Origin: Sedimenticola sp.
GTDB lineage: Bacteria > Pseudomonadota > Gammaproteobacteria > Chromatiales > Chromatiaceae
Assembly: GCA_027083925.1 (NCBI GenBank)
Contig: JALWMK010000141.1
Span: 1 to 38,152, forward strand
DNA length: 38,152 nt
Direction of reading: 5' to 3'
Of this stretch, positions 25,719-38,133 are shown piece by piece; position 1 is the stretch's first letter; the number at the start of each line of letters is the position of its first letter. Position numbers and translations under genes: made by a program. The notes under the pieces were generated by a model. The model saw nothing but the letters and a program-made list of their open reading frames with translations, was not told the origin of the DNA and did not search any database.

Positions 25719-27848
25719 ATGTCCAGCCAGGGCCAGGCGCGCAAGGTTCTTGAGCAGATATTTGGCTACGCCAGCTACCGCGCTTCCCAGCAGGAAATCA
25801 TCGACTGCCTGATTGCCGGGCAGGATGCTCTGGTGCTGATGCCCACCGGGGGCGGAAAATCCCTGTGCTATCAAATTCCGTCACTGATTCGTCCGGGTGT
25901 TGGCATCGTCGTCTCCCCGCTGATTGCCTTGATGCAGGATCAGGTGCTGGCATTGCAGCAGCAGGGAGTGGCTGCAGCCGCGCTCAACTCTTCTCTGACA
26001 CCGGCAGAAGCACAGCATATAAAACGGCAGCTATTGAACGGGGAGCTGCAATTGCTGTATGTTGCCCCCGAACGATTGATGACGGACAGCTTCCAGGCAC
26101 TGTTGCGGCAGATTCAGGTTGCGCTGTTTGCGATTGATGAGGCGCATTGTGTGTCCCAGTGGGGGCATGATTTCCGGCCTGAATATATCCAGCTTTCCAC
26201 GCTGCACGAAACCTTTCCTCAAATTCCCAGGGTTGCATTGACTGCCACTGCAGATGAGCCTACGCGCAGGGAAATCATGCAGCGCCTCGACCTGGAGCAG
26301 GCCAAGCACTTTATCAGCGGCTTTGACCGACCGAACATTCGCTATCGGGTTGCTGCGGACAGCAGCAATAGCAGGCAACAGCTACTGCATTTTATCGAGC
26401 TGGATTATCCCGGTCAGGCGGGCATCGTCTACTGCCTTTCGCGTCGCAAGGTGGAGGAAACGGCTGCCTGGCTGCAGCGGCAAGGTATCAAGGCGCTGGC
26501 CTATCATGCCGGCCTGCCGCAACAGGTTCGGGCCGAAAACCAGAACAGGTTTTTGCGTGAGGAAGGGGTTGTTATCGTCGCCACCATCGCTTTTGGCATG
26601 GGTATCGACAAGCCGGATGTGCGCTTCGTTGTCCATCTGAACCTGCCTAAAAGCCTGGAAGCCTACTATCAGGAAACAGGCCGCGCTGGGCGGGATGGAG
26701 CGCCGGCAGAGGCGCTGCTTTTCTATAATCTGCAGGATGTCATCACCCTGCGCCAGTTTGTAGATCAATCTGATGCTGATGAAGCGCACAAGCGCATCGA
26801 AAGCCAGAAACTGGAACGCATGCTGGGTTACTGTGAGCTTACCAGCTGCCGCCGGCAGGCGTTACTGGCCTATTTTGGCGATCATCTGGAAGAGCCTTGC
26901 GGGAATTGCGATATCTGTCTGCATCCGCCCAAAACCCGGGATGGTACAGAAGCTGCACAAAAAGCCCTGTCCTGTGTGCATCACACTGGCCAGCGCTTCG
27001 GCGTGAACTACCTGATTGACGTGTTGCTGGGAAAAGACAATGAGCGTATCCGGCGCTTTAGCCACCACCAGATCAGTACTTTTGGTATTGGCGCGGAATT
27101 GAACCAGAAACAATGGCGGGGACTGTACCGGCAGTTGATTGCCCAGGGCTTCCTGGCCCTGGATCGGGAAGGACATGGTGGTTTGCAACTGACCGAGTCC
27201 TGCCGCCCCCTGTTGCGGGGCGAGAAAACCCTGCTATTGCGTGAAGAAAGCAAAGCTGAAAAGAAAGGCAAAACCAGGGGCAAGCGCCATTATGGTGGCA
27301 CAAATACCCGATTGTGGGAGGCGCTGCGGGAAAGGCGCATGGAATTGGCCCAGGAACAGGGGGTTCCTCCCTATGTCATCTTTCACGACGCCACCCTGAT
27401 GGCGATAATGGAGCAGCAACCCCGAACCATGGAGCAGATGAGTCATATCTCTGGTGTGGGTGTGCACAAGCTCGATGCCTATGGGAAAGCTTTTCTGGAG
27501 GTGCTGGCTGCACATGAGCAGACGCAAGAGGCTCCGGTTACGGATACGGTAGCTGAAAGTATAGAGCTATTCCACCAGGGCTTTGGTGTGGAGGAGATTG
27601 CCCGGCGGCGTGGCCTGAAATCTTCCACCATCTACAGCCACATGGCCAAGGGGATCGAGCAGGGCAGCATGGTGCTGCAAGATGTGGTGTCCCTGGATGC
27701 AGAGCGGATACAATATATTCAGGATCTTATGCTGGAGCAGGGTGCTGATAACCGCCTGGGGCCGGTATTTGAAGCCCTCGAAGAGAGCGTGGACTATGGG
27801 GTGCTGGCCTGCATTCGGGCAGAACTCAGTCAGCGTCTGGATAGTTGA
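25719..27848 (+). CDS. recQ: ATP-dependent DNA helicase RecQ, long form
   Basis: A 3'-5' DNA helicase used in recombination repair and restart of stalled forks. Walker [13 protein letters not shown] lies near residue 41, the DEAH box [18 protein letters not shown] near 139, and the arginine-finger segment [10 protein letters not shown] near 317. The zinc-binding cysteines (CELTSCRR, then CGNCDIC) follow near 370-395, and then a winged-helix RQC domain. An HRDC domain is at ~530-595 and a further ~100-residue C-terminal extension has a helix-turn-helix region ([21 protein letters not shown], probably HTH_40). E. coli RecQ is ~610 residues; this one is ~709 because of the extension. ATG 25719 has GGGAGG eight bases upstream. 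Its 3' end overlaps ccoS on the other strand. Confidence 0.95.
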
Positions 27849-28038
27849 GACCCGGCCGTTTTTTTCTCCGGGATGGTTCGCCATTTTCGCTTTCTGGCTT
27901 GTCTTCATCCATGAGAATACGGTTGCCATCGCCCTCCATGTCATCGTACTGGCCACGTTTAATGGCCCATATCAACACGCCCACGAACAGCAGCCCAAAA
28001 AAGATCATGCCGGGGATCAGGGTGTAAATAATGTCCAT
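27826..28038 (-). CDS. ccoS: cbb3-type oxidase assembly protein CcoS
   Basis: A 70-residue single-span membrane protein needed to insert heme or copper cofactors into the cbb3 oxidase. The membrane segment [20 protein letters not shown] and the following [15 protein letters not shown] match the family's W-A-x(n)-QYDD-x-G motif. It is longer than the usual 50-60 residues because of a charged tail ending [14 protein letters not shown]. Its ATG overlaps the ccoI stop in TAATG. The last 23 bases of the gene overlap the end of recQ on the opposite strand. Confidence 0.93.
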
Positions 28039-30494: not shown

Positions 30495-31048
30495 TGACTG
30501 CTGCTGGATAACACGGATATGCGGCGGGTCAGTTTCAGGCTGTCTTCGCCCTTGCTCAGCACGACGTTGAGATCCCAGGCGCCCTTCAGGGGGAAAATCA
30601 GCTCTGCGCTAAATACGCCAGGTGCGATTTTTTGCATCTTGGTGCTGAAGTCGGCGTTTACGTTGCTAGGCCGGTAGGCCTGAATGACGGCCCCGTCTGC
30701 ATCGATAGGAGTGCCTTTGGCATCCACCACATTGAAGGAGTAACGCGCAGACTCCCCGGTAACAGGTTTGCGTATCGTATTCAGCGTCATATACCAGCCG
30801 AGGCGGTTGCGCATCTGTTGCTGTGATACAAAATTCCGCTCTTGATCCCTACCTTTCTCATAGTAGTTTTTTTCCACCAGCCCAGGGCTGGTCACGATTG
30901 CGGTCACGATAAAGGCAGCATTGACGCCCAATACCAAAAGGATGCCACCGATCCATCCCAGAACCCATGGGTTTCTGAATGCTTCCTTGTTGTGTTGTGA
31001 GAAGCGGGGAGTATTTCCAGTGCGTGTTTCATTCATAGTGGGGTTCAT
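30491..31048 (-). CDS. ccoH: cbb3 oxidase accessory protein FixH/CcoH family
   Basis: A 185-residue single-span membrane protein of the FixH family. The membrane segment VLGWIGGILLVLGVNAAFIV is followed by the family marker PGLVEKNYYEKGRDQERN and a periplasmic beta-rich domain. CcoH stays with the cbb3 complex and supports its maturation. The start overlaps the end of ccoG by four bases (ATGA at 31045-31048); a second in-frame ATG at residue 5 (MNETRTGN) is possible. Confidence 0.93.
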   Translation of the reverse strand: MNPTMNETRTGNTPRFSQHNKEAFRNPWVLGWIGGILLVLGVNAAFIVTAIVTSPGLVEKNYYEKGRDQERNFVSQQQMRNRLGWYMTLNTIRKPVTGESARYSFNVVDAKGTPIDADGAVIQAYRPSNVNADFSTKMQKIAPGVFSAELIFPLKGAWDLNVVLSKGEDSLKLTRRISVLSSSSQ

Positions 31049-32472
31049 GGTTTTGGAGCAAAAAACATGCTTTCGTAAGAAGAGGTTTGTGTGGGATCAT
31101 CATGATTGACAATCGTGAAGGTGATCGGTGTGCGTTCATCCTTGATGTTTTCGGCCGGGGCGTTGATAAACATAATGTAAGAGCCGGTGTTGCCTTTTCG
31201 TGCCAGCAAGGTTTTTTCAGCGCCTTTGAGTACCATTCCTTCAATGCCGGATGCGGTTACCTTGATAGGGATATCATCGGTGGTTTTGTTGAGAATCTTA
31301 ACATCATACTTGTTCTGTATTGTGCCATCGCTACGTTGTACGAACAATGGTGAGCGGCCATGTAAAACCTTGACTTCGATATGCCCCAAACTGGTAAGAC
31401 CGTAAATGATGCCGCTGATCGACAAGGTCAGGATGGTCAGGTAAACCAGCACTCTGGGACGTTTTAACAAAGGCAGTTGTTTTTTGCCTTCCATCTCGTC
31501 CATGGAGGCATAGCGAATCAATCCCGTGGGGCGGCCGATTTTTCCCATTACCGCATCGCAGGCATCCAGGCACAAAGAGCAGGTAATGCAGCCTTCCTGC
31601 TGACCCATGCGGATATCGATGCCGGTAGGGCAGACCGCAATGCACTGTTTGCAGTCGATGCAGTCGCCGTTGCCTTCCACAAGCTGGCCTTTCTTCAGGC
31701 GCCCGCGAGGTTCGCCACGATGAAAATCATAGGTGGGCAGAATGGTTTCCTTATCGTACATGACGCCCTGAATGCGGGCGTAGGGACAAAGCCAGAAGCA
31801 GGTCTGTTCACGCAGTTTGCCTGCCAGCAGCATGGTTCCGGCAATGAACAAGGCAATCACACCATATTCCGTGGTGCTGGCGTTGAAAGTAAGAAGGTCA
31901 TGCCAAAGCTGGCGAGCATCGGTGAACCAGGCTACGAAGCTGATTCCCGTTAACACAGAAATAATAAACCACACTAAATACTTGAGTGATTTCTTGCGTA
32001 TTTTTTCTGTGTTCCAGGGGCCGGCATCCAGTTTTCGGCGTTTGGCCGGTGTGCCTTCAATCTTGTCCTCCAGCCAGATAAATAAATCTGTCCAGGCAGT
32101 CTGGAAGCAAAAAAAGCCACAATATACCCGACCTGCAATCGTGGTAACGGCCGCCAGCAGCATGGCAAAGAACAACAGTACCAGCGCCAACATCCATACA
32201 TCCTGGGGGAGGATGGTGAGGCCGAAGATATGGAACTGGCGATCTGGAATGTCAAAAAGAATGGCTTGCTGGCCATTCCAGCGGAGATAGGGGCCAAAGA
32301 AAAGAATCAGCCAGATGCTGTGTGTAACCCACTTCAGGCGACGCCATTTGCCCACCGCCTTTTTCGGGTAAGTTTTTTCTTCGCCGGTGTTGACATGCCA
32401 GTTGGCGACTTCCTCATAGATATCGTCGGAATAGTTTGCCTTGCTTTCTTTGGAAGTGGATGATTCTGTCAC
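31045..32472 (-). CDS. ccoG: cbb3 oxidase accessory iron-sulfur protein CcoG
   Basis: A polytopic membrane ferredoxin-like protein proposed to reduce copper for CcoN assembly. It has about five membrane segments, and two [4Fe-4S] cysteine clusters in CIDCKQCIAVCPTGIDIRMG and CITCSLCLDACDAVMG near residues 270-305. A periplasmic Ig-like FixG C-terminal domain is also present. I prefer GTG 32472 (MTESSTSKESKANYSDD) because AGGAG lies six bases before it; GTG 32490 is also in frame. It is the first gene of the ccoGHIS group, and all three downstream junctions overlap. Confidence 0.94.
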   Translation of the reverse strand: MTESSTSKESKANYSDDIYEEVANWHVNTGEEKTYPKKAVGKWRRLKWVTHSIWLILFFGPYLRWNGQQAILFDIPDRQFHIFGLTILPQDVWMLALVLLFFAMLLAAVTTIAGRVYCGFFCFQTAWTDLFIWLEDKIEGTPAKRRKLDAGPWNTEKIRKKSLKYLVWFIISVLTGISFVAWFTDARQLWHDLLTFNASTTEYGVIALFIAGTMLLAGKLREQTCFWLCPYARIQGVMYDKETILPTYDFHRGEPRGRLKKGQLVEGNGDCIDCKQCIAVCPTGIDIRMGQQEGCITCSLCLDACDAVMGKIGRPTGLIRYASMDEMEGKKQLPLLKRPRVLVYLTILTLSISGIIYGLTSLGHIEVKVLHGRSPLFVQRSDGTIQNKYDVKILNKTTDDIPIKVTASGIEGMVLKGAEKTLLARKGNTGSYIMFINAPAENIKDERTPITFTIVNHDDPTQTSSYESMFFAPKP

Positions 32473-32523
32473 CGTGTTCTCCTGGTTCACATGTTATATA
32501 CAGGGCAAATGCTGAACCTTCAA

Positions 32524-32868: not shown

Positions 32869-32985
32869 TCAATCGTCAGATTTTGTTTCATTCATGAGTT
32901 TCCTTACTTTCCAAACCAGAAATATGAACACAATTACGGCAATGGTTACTGACAGATAAGATGCTATGGCTGTCCAGTCCGACAT
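32869..32985 (-). CDS. 38-residue single-span membrane protein in the cco cluster
   Basis: A very short gene starting at ATG 32985. The protein begins MSDWTAIASYLSVTIAVIV and continues with FIFLVWKVRKLMNE before ending TKSDD: one hydrophobic span, then a positively charged stretch and an acidic end, suggesting the C-terminus is in the cytoplasm. A strong AGGAGGGA ribosome binding site ends seven bases before the start. It lies 69 bases after ccoP and immediately before the operon terminator. Some cbb3 enzymes contain small extra subunits such as CcoM of Pseudomonas stutzeri, so this is a candidate small subunit or assembly factor. I do not recognise its sequence. Confidence 0.75.
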   Translation of the reverse strand: MSDWTAIASYLSVTIAVIVFIFLVWKVRKLMNETKSDD

Positions 32986-33012: not shown

Positions 33013-33036
33013 AGGCACCCGGAAATCCGGGTGCCT
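33013..33036. promoter_or_regulatory. Perfect hairpin between ccoP and the small gene
   Basis: AGGCACCCGG and CCGGGTGCCT form a perfect 10-bp stem around a 4-base loop, 18 bases after the ccoP stop. Only a short TTT follows on the minus strand, so it looks more like an RNA-stabilising or partial-termination element that would set the level of the small gene relative to ccoNOQP. Confidence 0.7.
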
Positions 33037-33054: not shown

Positions 33055-33897
33055 TTACTGACCACCGCCAAGGGCGTGCACATAAACGGCAAGCTTCTTG
33101 ATCTGGATGTCTGTCAAACGCTCTTTCCAGGCCGGCATTTCAGCTTTGCGGGTATTGGGGTCAGTAGGATCGTTGACGCCATGCGCAATGGTGGCCTTGA
33201 TGCTGGCCAGTTGATCCTTGGCAGTGAAGCGCCAGATTTTGTCAACCAGATTGGCAGAGCCCAGCGCTGCCATACCCTTGCCATCCGGGCCGTGACAACC
33301 GATACAACCCTTGGCTGCATACAAAGGCTCGCTCACAACAGTGCCATTGTGGATTGCTCCAGCCAATTTGTCGATTTCCGCGGTGCTAAGCTGAGCGCCG
33401 CCCATTTTCGGCATCACGGCCTTGCGACCGTCAGCGATGGATGTGTTAATCAGGTCAATGGAGCCGCCAAACAGCCAGTCATCGTCAACCAGGGCGGGGT
33501 AGCCGGGGTTTCCGCCGCCGCCGCTGCCGTGACAGGCAGCGCAGTTGTCTCCATACAGCACTTTTGAAGAGCGCACCACATAGTTTTTCAATTCATCGTC
33601 TGCGAGGATGGCTGCGGCACTCATACCAGGCAGCTTGTCTTCGTATTTGGCGCGAATATCCGTTACTTCTTTCATGTCTTTCTTGAATTCGCCGATGGAT
33701 GTCCAGCCAGCCAGCCCCTTGAAGTGGCTGTTTAGCATAGGCCAGGAAGGATAATACAGGGTATACAACACCACCAGGATCCAGCTGGCATGTAGCCCGA
33801 GCATCCACCATTTTGGTGGTGGGTTGGTCAGTTCCGCCAGAGTCTCGTCCCAGACGTGACCGGTAGTCTGGCCGTGAGGATTGCTATTGTCACTCAT
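33055..33897 (-). CDS. ccoP: cbb3 cytochrome oxidase diheme subunit CcoP
   Basis: Membrane-anchored diheme cytochrome c that receives electrons and passes them to CcoO. One membrane segment (WWMLGLHASWILVVLYTLYY) is followed by two cytochrome c domains with heme sites CAACH near residue 119 and CIGCH near residue 198. Candidate axial methionines are in VMPKMGG and AEMPAW. The sequence PPPKWWMLG and the FKDM-like FKKDMKEV region are typical of CcoP. The 280 residues are normal. It overlaps ccoQ by four bases (ATGA at 33894-33897). Confidence 0.97.
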   Translation of the reverse strand: MSDNSNPHGQTTGHVWDETLAELTNPPPKWWMLGLHASWILVVLYTLYYPSWPMLNSHFKGLAGWTSIGEFKKDMKEVTDIRAKYEDKLPGMSAAAILADDELKNYVVRSSKVLYGDNCAACHGSGGGGNPGYPALVDDDWLFGGSIDLINTSIADGRKAVMPKMGGAQLSTAEIDKLAGAIHNGTVVSEPLYAAKGCIGCHGPDGKGMAALGSANLVDKIWRFTAKDQLASIKATIAHGVNDPTDPNTRKAEMPAWKERLTDIQIKKLAVYVHALGGGQ

Positions 33898-34100
33898 TTT
33901 TCTTTCTCCGAGTCTGTATTCTTTTCGTCAAACGGAATGTTCCGTTGTGATTCAAGACGTTCTTTGTTCTTCGGGTTGAACACATAGGTATAGATCCATA
34001 CCATGGCCAGCAATGTTCCTATCGTCAGGATCATGCCGATCCAGTCATGCAGGGTCATTGCTGCCCAGTTGGTCTGGAAATATTCCCGAAGACTACTCAC
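33894..34100 (-). CDS. ccoQ: cbb3 cytochrome oxidase subunit CcoQ
   Basis: Small single-span subunit that stabilises the cbb3 complex. The core ([20 protein letters not shown], then [19 protein letters not shown]) ends with the family tail NIPFDE. Two starts are possible: GTG 34100, overlapping the end of ccoO, with AAGGAAGG upstream and giving 68 residues; or ATG 34058, giving 54 residues but no clear ribosome binding site. I prefer the GTG. It lies between ccoO and ccoP as expected. Confidence 0.82.
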
Positions 34101-34815
34101 GATAATCCACGCCTTCCTTGAGGTTGGCCATGGTACCCAGTACCTGTAGATAGGCGACCAGTGCTTCCATCTCTGACTTGCCGTCAACGTCAGCGGCAGT
34201 TGCGATGTCTGCATCGGTATAGGGCACGCCAATCATACGCAGCCCCTTAAGATTCCTCTCGAGTTGCTTGCCATCGACAGCGTTTTCCATCAGCCAGGGA
34301 TAATTCGGCATCACAGACTCGGGAACCACAGAGCGTGGCGCCAACAAGTGTTGGACATGCCATTCATCGGAGTACTTGCCACCAACTCTTGCCAGATCCG
34401 GGCCGGTTCGCTTGGAACCCCATTGGAAGGGATGGTCATACATGGACTCGGAAGCCAGTGAATAATGACCATAGCGCTCAGCTTCATCGCGGAAGGGGCG
34501 GATCTGCTGCGAATGACACAGATAGCAGCCCTCGCGGATGTAGACATCACGGCCCGCTTGCTCAAGGGCGGTGTAGGGGCGGACGCCATCGCCGGTCTTC
34601 CAGGTGGAAAGGTCTTTACGATCCGCCTTGGCCACGTTGGCCTGCCAGACAATTTCCGGGTGCTTGTTATGCTCCATGGTATCGTCCAGGTAGAACAGGG
34701 GGACAATCTCCACCAGGCCACCCACGGATAACGTTACCAGGAGCAAGACGAACATGACGAATACATTGCGTTCCGCCTTGTCCTGCAGTTTGGTTGAATG
34801 AATTTTATCAGCCAT
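34093..34815 (-). CDS. ccoO: cbb3 cytochrome oxidase monoheme subunit CcoO
   Basis: Membrane-anchored monoheme cytochrome c of the cbb3 oxidase. An N-terminal membrane segment ([20 protein letters not shown]) is followed by the heme site [17 protein letters not shown] near residue 96. The family segments [15 protein letters not shown] and [20 protein letters not shown], the latter with the likely axial methionine, come after it. The 240 residues are somewhat above the ~200 of many CcoO proteins but within range. AGGAG precedes the start; the gap to ccoN is 14 bases. Confidence 0.97.
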
Positions 34816-34829
34816 TGTTGATTCTCCTG

Positions 34830-36245
34830 TTAAGCCGTAGCCGCAGCAGCAGTAGAGCTGCGCTCGGTGGAAGCCTTGCGAATGGTCATAATGACGTTGT
34901 AGAGCATGATGACACCACCTGAGAAGAAGATCATGCCGCCGATGGCGCGCATGGCATAGTAGGGGTGCATGGCAGCTACTGATTCAGCGAAGGTATAGGT
35001 CAGGGTGCCAAATTCGTCATAGTCGCGCCACATCAAGCCTTGCATGATGCCGGATACCCACATGGCAGTGATGTATACAACCGTGCCGATGGTGGATGTC
35101 CAGAAGTGGATGTTGACCAGCTTGGCGGAGTACATCTTGACGCCCCAGAGCTTTTCCACCATATGATAGAGCGCACCTGCAGATACCATGGCAACCCAGC
35201 CCAACGCACCAGAGTGGACATGACCTACCGTCCAGTCAGTGTAATGGGAGAGAGCATTAACTGACTTGGCGGACATGACCGGACCTTCAAAGGTGGACAT
35301 GGCGTAAAAAGCCAGAGACATGATCATGAAGCGCAGGATGTAATCCTCACGCAGTTTGTCCCATGCGCCGGAGAGGGTCATCATCCCGTTGATGGCGCCA
35401 CCCCAGGAAGGGATGATCATGGCCAGAGAAATGGCTGCACCTACGGAACCTGTCCAGTCAGGCAGTGCGGTGTATTGCAGGTGGTGAGCACCCAGCCAGA
35501 CATAACCAAACATCAGTGCCCAGAAGTGCAATACGGACAAACGATAGGAGAATATCGGGCGATTGGCCTGCTTGGGTACAAAATAATACATAATGCCCAG
35601 GAAGCCAGCAGTCAGGTAGAAGCCCACCGCATTGTGGCCCCACCACCATTGAATCATGGCATCCTGCACACCGGAGAATATGGAGTAAGACTTGAACAGG
35701 CTGACGGGAATCGCCAGGCTGTTGACCACATGCAGATAGGTGATCATGACGAACATGCCCATGAAGAACCAGTTGGACACATAAATATGGCTGGTCTTGC
35801 GCTTGGCAATGGTCATGATGAAGTTCAATCCAAAGGATAGCCAGACCACGGCAATGGCCAGATCAATGGGCCATTCCAGTTCAGCGTATTCCTTGGACTG
35901 GGTGATACCCAGTGGAAGAGTGATAACTGCAGCGACAATGATCAGGTTCCACCCCCAGAAGGTGAACCAGGCCATTTTCGGACTCCAGAGAGAGGTGCCG
36001 CCGGTTCGTTGCACGCTGTAGAATGCGGTAGCAAACAAGGTACAACCACCGAAGGCAAAGATTACAGCGTTTGTATGAAGGGGCCGTAAGCGACCGAAAG
36101 TAAGTTCGGCGATATCAAAGTTGAGGAACGGCCATGCCAGTTGTGATGCGATGAAGGTTCCCACCAGGGTTCCCACAACAAGATAGACGACCGCCATGAT
36201 GGAAAACCATCGTATGACGTCAAAATCATATTTCGTTTCTTCCAC
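34830..36245 (-). CDS. ccoN: cbb3 cytochrome oxidase catalytic subunit CcoN
   Basis: The 12-span catalytic subunit with low-spin heme b and the high-spin heme b3-CuB site, which reduces oxygen at low concentrations and pumps protons. Ligand histidines are visible in [43 protein letters not shown] and [15 protein letters not shown] start it at GTG 36245 ([15 protein letters not shown]), which has GGGAGG at good spacing; an ATG at 36284 is in frame but lacks this. That gives 471 residues, normal for CcoN. It begins the ccoNOQP group. Confidence 0.97.
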
Positions 36246-36382
36246 GAAAACCTCCCAGTTCAGATTTCGAAAAAAACAACCCATAAAGCTTGTGTTTGCG
36301 GAAGCCTTGTTTTCTTACAGCACCCAAGTACACCGAAATATTTCGTGACCTGTTTAACAAAAGAAGGTTCCCGACCGACGAG

Positions 36383-36546: not shown

Positions 36547-37260
36547 TCAGTAAACAAACAGGGCGCTCAGGCTGGATTCGTCTATGATCTCGATATTTTT
36601 TGCCTTGATGTCAATCAGGTTCCGGGATTGGAGGTTTTTCAATGTGCGGATCACGGTTTCCATGGCCAGGCCGAGGTAATCGGCAATGGCTTCTCGTGAC
36701 ATGGGTAGCCGGAACTGGCGTGCGGGAAGACCGCGAGTATCCAGGCGGCTGGCGATATTCACCAAAAATGCCGCAATCCGCTGCTCTGCTGTTTGCATGC
36801 CTGTCAGCGAGCGCTCCCATTGCAGTTGCCGTGCATGATGCGCGGCGGATCCAAGCAGGTATTTCTGTACGTTGATCAATTCGTCTTTGGACAGGGCTTC
36901 TCCCAGGGAAGAAAAATCCAGCTGGCAAATGGAGCCTTTTTCCAAGGCGTAGGTAGTGTGGTTGCAGGTGTTCTGCCCGATATTCTCGATGCCGGCGATT
37001 TCTCCCGGCAGATAAAACCCCATCACGCGACTGTTGCCCAGCATGGTGGCGTTACTGATGCATGAGCCTGAGTGAATCAGGTACAAATAGCGGAAAGTTT
37101 CCCCTTCATGGTACAGCACCTCATTCTTCCTTACCGGGTGATTGCGCAATACAATGCGGTTCAAAGAGCTGCAATCCGGGGTTTCCAGCCCCAACACCCG
37201 GGCAGTCTGATAGAGCGCGCAGTTGCGGCACATGACCGCTGATGTGTTGTTTGCTTGCAT
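36547..37260 (-). CDS. Divergent Fnr-type regulator lacking one cluster cysteine
   Basis: A 237-residue Crp/Fnr-family regulator with a sensory barrel (GETFRYLYLIHSGSC, then YLPGEIAGIENIG) and a C-terminal helix-turn-helix (MSREAIADYLGLAMETVIRT). Fnr needs four cysteines for its oxygen-sensing [4Fe-4S] cluster. Here Cys11, Cys14 and Cys112 fit three of them, but the expected third N-terminal cysteine is Ala20; Cys30, Cys67 and Cys99 are alternatives. The recognition helix has ETVIR where Fnr has ETISR, so the DNA target may differ. ATG 37260 has AAAGGA seven bases upstream. It follows canonical fnr by 96 bases and precedes the cco genes. Confidence 0.88.
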   Translation of the reverse strand: MQANNTSAVMCRNCALYQTARVLGLETPDCSSLNRIVLRNHPVRKNEVLYHEGETFRYLYLIHSGSCISNATMLGNSRVMGFYLPGEIAGIENIGQNTCNHTTYALEKGSICQLDFSSLGEALSKDELINVQKYLLGSAAHHARQLQWERSLTGMQTAEQRIAAFLVNIASRLDTRGLPARQFRLPMSREAIADYLGLAMETVIRTLKNLQSRNLIDIKAKNIEIIDESSLSALFVY

Positions 37261-37324
37261 GGAATATCCTTTTGCGATCAAGGTGAATACTGAACGTCAG
37301 GGGAGTGGGCTGTGAAGCCATGAC

Positions 37325-37360: not shown

Positions 37361-38118
37361 TTTGGCGCCCGTAATCTGTCAAGACATGTGGTCTGATTGG
37401 AAAGCAGGCTGTACAGGCGATCCATGTTCAATATCTCAATATGCTTTCGATCCACAAGAAGGGTTTTTTCGTCCTGAAAATGAGTAAACAAACGACTGAC
37501 AGTTTCCAGGGCCAGACCCAGATAAGAGCCGATTTCCTGACGGGACATACTCAGGTTGAATTCCACAGGGGAAAAACCGCGGTCGTGAAAGCGTACAGAA
37601 AGACTGAGCAGAAATGCAGCGAGACGTTCTTCGGCGGTACTTTTCCCCAGTAACACCATCAAACCGGTTTCCTTGGTAATTTCCCGGCTCATCAGGCGAA
37701 ACAATTGATGCTGAAGGCCTGGTATGGATGAAGTCAGCTCCTCAAGGCGTTGAAATGGCACTTCACAAACAGCCGTGGTTTCCAGCGCCTTGGCGGAACA
37801 CAAATGCTTGTCGCATTCAATGCCGTCCAGACCAACGACTTCACCCGGAAGGTGGAAACCAACTACTTGCTCCGAGCCGTTCGGACACTGGGTGTAGGTC
37901 TTGATGGTGCCGGTTTTCACAACGTAGAGGCTGTGAAATTTGTTGCCGGTCTGAAATACATGGCCACCGCGCTGCAGGGGACGATTGCGCTGCACAATGG
38001 CATCAAGTTGATCAATGTCGCCGCTGTCTAGCCCCAGGGGAAGGCAGAGTTTTGCCAGCCCGCAGTTTTTGCATGCGACTTTGAGTTTGTTCAGGGGGAT
38101 AACCTTGTTTTTGGGCAA
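37357..38118 (-). CDS. fnr: Fnr oxygen-responsive transcriptional regulator
   Basis: A 253-residue Fnr orthologue. The cluster cysteines are all present: Cys16, Cys19 and Cys25 in CKNCGLAKLC and Cys118 in TTAVCEVPF. The recognition helix MSRQEIGSYLGLALETVSRL keeps the E-x2-SR residues that read TTGAT half-sites. Fnr binds DNA as a dimer when its [4Fe-4S] cluster is intact, that is, without oxygen. The start appears to be TTG 38118, because an in-frame TAG lies upstream and no ATG or GTG is available nearby. It is the first of two adjacent Fnr-family genes upstream of the cco genes. Confidence 0.94.
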   Translation of the reverse strand: MPKNKVIPLNKLKVACKNCGLAKLCLPLGLDSGDIDQLDAIVQRNRPLQRGGHVFQTGNKFHSLYVVKTGTIKTYTQCPNGSEQVVGFHLPGEVVGLDGIECDKHLCSAKALETTAVCEVPFQRLEELTSSIPGLQHQLFRLMSREITKETGLMVLLGKSTAEERLAAFLLSLSVRFHDRGFSPVEFNLSMSRQEIGSYLGLALETVSRLFTHFQDEKTLLVDRKHIEILNMDRLYSLLSNQTTCLDRLRAPN

Positions 38119-38133
38119 TGGAGTTCTCTATAG

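Follow-up and report, generated by a model that had tools for sequence, protein, structure and literature searches.

A conserved 38-residue membrane protein gene after ccoP in Sedimenticola sp., a candidate accessory subunit of cbb3 oxidase

A frame encoding 38 residues that follows ccoP in the window (the whole 38,152-nucleotide stretch of Sedimenticola sp. DNA analysed here) is a genuine gene, conserved far beyond what would be expected of a chance frame. It is most probably the last cistron of a ccoN-ccoO-ccoQ-ccoP-small gene unit, with a product that probably serves as an accessory cbb3 subunit, stabilising the oxidase or helping in its assembly as CcoM is reported to do. A preliminary description of the locus had considered an extra small cbb3 subunit or assembly peptide likely, and this reading gains support, by inference, from position, co-transcription and the precedents of CcoM, CcoX and CcoY.

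The cbb3 oxidases serve microaerobic bacteria, sulfur oxidisers and symbionts among them, as terminal oxidases of high affinity. To our knowledge, CcoM, CcoX and CcoY were each found only through structure or genetics, and in single organisms. The present gene family, which has its fixed place behind ccoNOQP in many bacterial families, offers a candidate for such a subunit, generally overlooked so far and open to testing, and it merits inclusion in family models and in purification or modelling work.

Evidence for the gene

The preliminary description gave the coordinates of the frame correctly (Table 1) and left its strand unstated; the strand is minus, and the plus strand of 32869-32985 holds no such 38-residue frame. 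The minus-strand translation of 32985-32869 is MSDWTAIASYLSVTIAVIVFIFLVWKVRKLMNETKSDD*, running from an ATG at 32985-32983 to a stop codon at 32871-32869. The strong ribosome binding site, the single hydrophobic span, the basic-then-acidic tail that follows it and the position between ccoP and a terminator, all previously claimed, were borne out on this strand. Single-sequence structure prediction gives one helix (residues 2-36, mean pLDDT 85), directly preceded by an invariant Asp. Since the positive charges follow the helix, the well-established positive-inside rule would place the N-terminus outside and the C-terminus inside, and the product is accordingly predicted to be a bitopic inner-membrane peptide.

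Table 1. Features of the cbb3 locus in the window
Feature	Position	Strand	Basis
ccoN	34830..36284	minus	Pfam COX1; 3mk7_A E 4e-207
ccoO	34093..34815	minus	Pfam FixO 4e-82
ccoQ, separate from the small gene	33894..34058	minus	position between ccoO and ccoP; weak FixQ match
ccoP, dihaem subunit	33055..33897	minus	Pfam FixP_N + Cytochrome_CBB3; matches 3mk7/5djq CcoP
Intercistronic hairpin, ccoP/small gene	33013..33036	minus	10 pairs, stable, no long T run
Shine-Dalgarno AGGAGGGA	32998-32991	minus	sequence; 5 nt before the small-gene ATG
Small gene, 38-residue single-helix membrane protein	32869..32985, including stop codon	minus	conservation, coding constraint, predicted helix 2-36
Intrinsic-terminator-like site closing the ccoNOQP-small gene unit	32845-32819	minus	12-pair stem, then T run
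ccoG, at the head of the ccoGHIS maturation cluster, beyond the terminator	31045..32490	minus	Pfam Fer4_18 + FixG_C

The synonymous/non-synonymous comparison proposed in the preliminary description revealed coding constraint. Among 14 sequences of close relatives, pooled pS was 0.69 and pN 0.19 per site in the small-gene frame, these being uncorrected proportions from non-independent pairs, while the two shifted frames of the same strand gave 0.22/0.33 each and the synonymous bias was gone. The protein has been conserved among relatives while the underlying DNA changed.

At E<=0.1, a search of the order with the single 38-residue sequence matched 67 of its 195 genomes. At the best 30 places, the window included, ccoP was immediately upstream in every case, and ccoG was found in the downstream stretch of 28; of the other two, L007 is at a contig end and L025 has no ccoG within 1.5 kb. 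From 433 confirmed relatives, 80 named loci were also gathered through CcoP, blind to the small gene, with plasmid records carrying ccoP (rhizobial or Methylobacterium, about 36% identity) left out of the counts. The small gene follows directly after ccoP in 76 of these 80, with profile scores of at least 29.7 bits, and in 61 of the 76 an SD-like 4-mer is present. Carriers include Sedimenticola selenatireducens, S. hydrogenitrophicus, Candidatus Thiodiazotropha, Motiliproteus sediminis and a Thiohalomonas denitrificans assembly; the record nearest to the window (L096) is an assembly labelled Sedimenticola sp., with a CcoP that is 98% identical. In L136 the small-gene frame is present without a clear start, and the four named loci without the gene are L123, L157, L171 and L172, L171 having just 239 bases downstream.

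Transcription unit

Beyond the terminator-like site of the window, the gene order is ccoG, ccoH, ccoI, ccoS, and ccoS (27826-28038) matches the FixS model. On the other side, the frame 33897-34100, from which ccoQ was assigned, matches FixQ with an E-value of 7e-4, under the Pfam cut-off. Of the 76 named loci that carry the gene, 65 have a terminator-like site in the stretch separating it from ccoG, as against 5 of 76 shuffled stretches, and only 10 show such a site in the gap that follows ccoP. Because the terminator follows the small gene and precedes ccoG, the gene would be the last cistron of ccoNOQP and lie outside ccoGHIS. Adjacency and downstream terminators together point to co-transcription of the small gene with the structural subunits.

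The gap between ccoP and the small gene folds at -27.1 kcal/mol (z -4.62), and a GC-rich hairpin occupies this gap in 50 of the 76 related loci, as a raw count. In combination with the strong ribosome binding site, the hairpin looks like a device that sets the small gene's own level of expression. It might also be an RNA-processing or attenuation element. Rfam returned no match anywhere in the window, and a scan for FNR boxes gave 19 matches where 18.8 were expected, hence no evidence of such boxes. Upstream of ccoN, two neighbouring minus-strand frames (approximately 36560-37270 and 37370-38120) resemble regulators of the FNR/CRP type, and both carry an N-terminal Cys motif, as judged by reading the sequence.

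Distribution alongside CcoP

Two profiles of the family were built, A1 from 29 members and A2 from 42. Within the order, A1 matched 116 of 195 genomes at E<=0.1. The strong matches (E<=7.5e-9) comprise 114 places in 113 genomes; weaker matches fell for the most part within long frames at other places and were dropped. Of the 114, 112 stand on the strand of ccoP and downstream of it, at a distance of 16-280 nt (median 95). With these and the two sets of loci above, the conserved short frame after ccoP that the preliminary description had suggested looking for in relatives is well documented. CcoP itself was found in 171 of the 195 genomes. Among the matches listed, a CcoP of the window's type is accompanied by the small gene in 112 of 143 genomes and lacks it in 31; in the other genomes among the 171, CcoP is more distant.

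Across the whole class, A2 had matches at E<=0.01 in 42 of 369 genomes. A1 was used to fetch 29 loci, of which 28 have the gene between ccoP and ccoG and one (L045) is cut off by the end of its contig. When the lists were compared by eye, 28 of the 34 class genomes with CcoP at E<=1.1e-95 were found to have an A2 match at E<=4e-6; those without are G277, G425, G404, G426, G303 and G196. The more distant CcoPs among the matches listed in the class had no small-gene neighbour. Presence of the small gene follows the lineage of CcoP. A draw of 72 genomes from the phylum yielded 7 matching genomes outside the class, all in one family (f189), and all four of the f189 loci fetched place the gene between ccoP and ccoG. 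This family is, at a guess, perhaps one of iron-oxidising Zetaproteobacteria. The small gene is thus present in further families of the Gammaproteobacteria and in at least one class of Pseudomonadota besides.

Family members are not confined to the operon. In three class genomes, unlinked paralogues were found (L246, G331:C7; L247, G538:C11; L249, G319:C1) with no cco gene in the stretch fetched, and their tail carries a Cys (LMKTCNS or LMKSCNS) where linked members have T or H. Relocation away from the operon therefore does occur. A further variant (L056, G227:C10), situated between ccoP and ccoG, is a 96-residue member with a long C-terminal extension rich in Lys, Ala and Ser.

Forty ccoP downstream regions without a profile match were read for small membrane frames, and most had a short gap to ccoG with no such frame. 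No such small frame follows ccoP in L227 and L242; a ccoH-like gene directly follows it in L209; no cco gene was detected in the downstream stretch of L210, L239 and L244; and the L207 stretch runs to the contig end. L240 (G106:C6) holds an apparent decayed remnant, with a TTG start and a score of 14.1 bits, in a lineage otherwise without the small gene, and the gap between ccoP and ccoG in L243 / L157 (G122:C189) is taken up by another small membrane frame that looks unrelated. Given that the gene is missing, with an empty gap, from some genomes with the window's type of CcoP, the oxidase can evidently do without it, and dispensability in some lineages suggests that its role is accessory and not catalytic.

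No curated Pfam or NCBIfam model reached its cut-off on the small-gene product, whether searched as a single sequence or as family members, so the label "unrecognised" given in the preliminary description is apt for both collections; weak, sub-threshold matches were to unrelated membrane families. Nothing relevant emerged from the PDB, searched with the single sequence and two profiles, no chain of the solved cbb3 structures matched the product by sequence, and searches of the open-access literature turned up no gene described as lying between ccoP and ccoG in gammaproteobacteria. Taken as a whole, the matches define a new family of predicted one-helix, cbb3-linked proteins, so far unnamed in gene catalogues.

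Candidate roles of the product

Under the favoured reading, the small gene would be translated from its own strong Shine-Dalgarno sequence after the intercistronic hairpin, within a unit closed by the terminator, and the peptide would insert into the inner membrane with its N-terminus out and its C-terminus in. It would then pack against the membrane part of CcoN and CcoP as an accessory subunit and stabilise the cbb3 oxidase or help to assemble it, by analogy with CcoM, CcoX and CcoY. Physical association with the oxidase and a stabilising role are what these precedents lead one to expect; counting against a subunit are the 31 listed genomes in which a CcoP of the window's type stands without the gene, and the absence of the gene beside other CcoP lineages of the class.

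Among the precedents, CcoX (DUF4006) and the 33-residue CcoY of Campylobacter jejuni are one-helix proteins encoded just after ccoP, CcoX being essential and CcoY important for oxidase activity (PMC8267372). The small-gene product shares their size, single helix and location directly downstream of ccoP, whereas C. jejuni ccoX and ccoY precede ccoZ and ccoH and the window's small gene precedes a terminator and then ccoG. DUF4006 was absent from the six Pfam families matched by the 42 family members at E<=0.01. CcoQ/FixQ, too, is a small cbb3 protein with one helix, encoded in the same operon and with an N-terminal "DWV" flavour in common with the small-gene product; unlike the small gene, ccoQ is present in the window as a gene of its own, and the FixQ model (PF05545) had no match at E<=0.01 among the 42 members. 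Apart from the family's long member, the natural segments that scored highest with the profile were for the most part N-terminal ones resembling CcoQ or CcoN. Origin as a CcoQ duplicate was considered and rejected, direct profile similarity being not above that of shuffles (40 of 200 as good).

CcoM has until now been regarded as a Pseudomonas speciality. It resembles the small-gene product in size (36 versus 38 residues), in its single helix and basic end, in the Asp just before the helix, in cbb3 context and in implied topology; the two differ in that identity is only about 20% and that ccoM lies outside the cco operon, whereas the small gene forms the end of ccoNOQP. CcoM of Pseudomonas stutzeri (PDB 5djq chain N) is reported to stabilise the cbb3 oxidase or help in its assembly. 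In the present collection it occurs in 50 of 51 genomes of the Pseudomonas-type genus, and in G565, where CcoM is identical, ccoM is about 0.58 Mb from the nearest ccoP.

It is tempting, if tentative, to regard the small gene as the operon-linked orthologue of ccoM, with the unlinked ccoM a relocated and diverged descendant whose product occupies the same seat. Besides the similar length and topology, hhalign of CcoM against A2 gave P 4e-4 in an ungapped alignment from residue 1, and against an extended profile (108 sequences) P 8e-5, with 0 of 400 column shuffles as good; the profile-profile alignment runs end to end, with Asp and Val in register. Also in keeping with orthology, ccoM is unlinked in Pseudomonas, unlinked copies of the small-gene family exist elsewhere, and none of the four genomes of the Pseudomonas family (f160) in the phylum draw matched the small-gene family. 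Against it, 4 of 300 column shuffles and 5 of 300 natural membrane segments equalled or beat CcoM in hhalign with the first profile. In hmmsearch, CcoM scored 7.5 bits with the first profile, a value reached by 32 of 567 natural membrane segments and 148 of 2000 shuffles, and 5.5 bits with the extended profile, reached by 60 of 567 and 502 of 2000, respectively. Nor did either of the two profiles used on the PDB find 5djq_N at E<=10. The profile comparison is suggestive, and because hmmsearch cannot separate CcoM from natural segments and shuffles, CcoM serves as a functional model and possible relative, its homology unproven. Were orthology to hold, which is at present rather doubtful, the small gene would be a widespread operon-encoded "M" subunit, shared by Gammaproteobacteria and a second class of Pseudomonadota, and Pseudomonas CcoM its relocated, diverged copy; many cbb3 oxidases would then be four-subunit-plus-M enzymes, with one subunit missing from family databases.

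Rather than residing in the finished enzyme as an accessory subunit, the product could act as a transient assembly factor that guides CcoP or the insertion of haem or copper, in the manner of CcoH and CcoS, although this is unlikely. These one-helix accessory proteins of cbb3 biogenesis are fitting precedents, CcoH being called an assembly factor and CcoS being named for cofactor insertion in the title of a cited reference, and dispensability in some lineages would suit an accessory role of this kind. Unlike the small gene, however, CcoH and CcoS are encoded in the separate ccoGHIS cluster, and the terminator seen in 65 of 76 loci assigns the small gene to the structural unit; FixH and FixS (PF03597) had no match among the 42 members.

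Less probable by a wide margin is that the membrane peptide has some unrelated task, such as that of a small regulator, and is carried as a passenger of the operon: the sequence by itself names no function, and the sub-threshold matches are to unrelated membrane families, but linkage to ccoP at 112 of 114 and 76 of 80 places, across many families and in a second class, would be difficult to account for if the two had no function in common, and unlinked copies are few. Finally, the notion of a chance open frame, or of part of the 3' untranslated region, which the small size and the abutting terminator might bring to mind, is ruled out by presence at 76 of 80 named ccoP loci and by coding constraint, with the synonymous bias, the conservation of the protein over changed DNA and the recurrent Shine-Dalgarno sequence all weighing against it.
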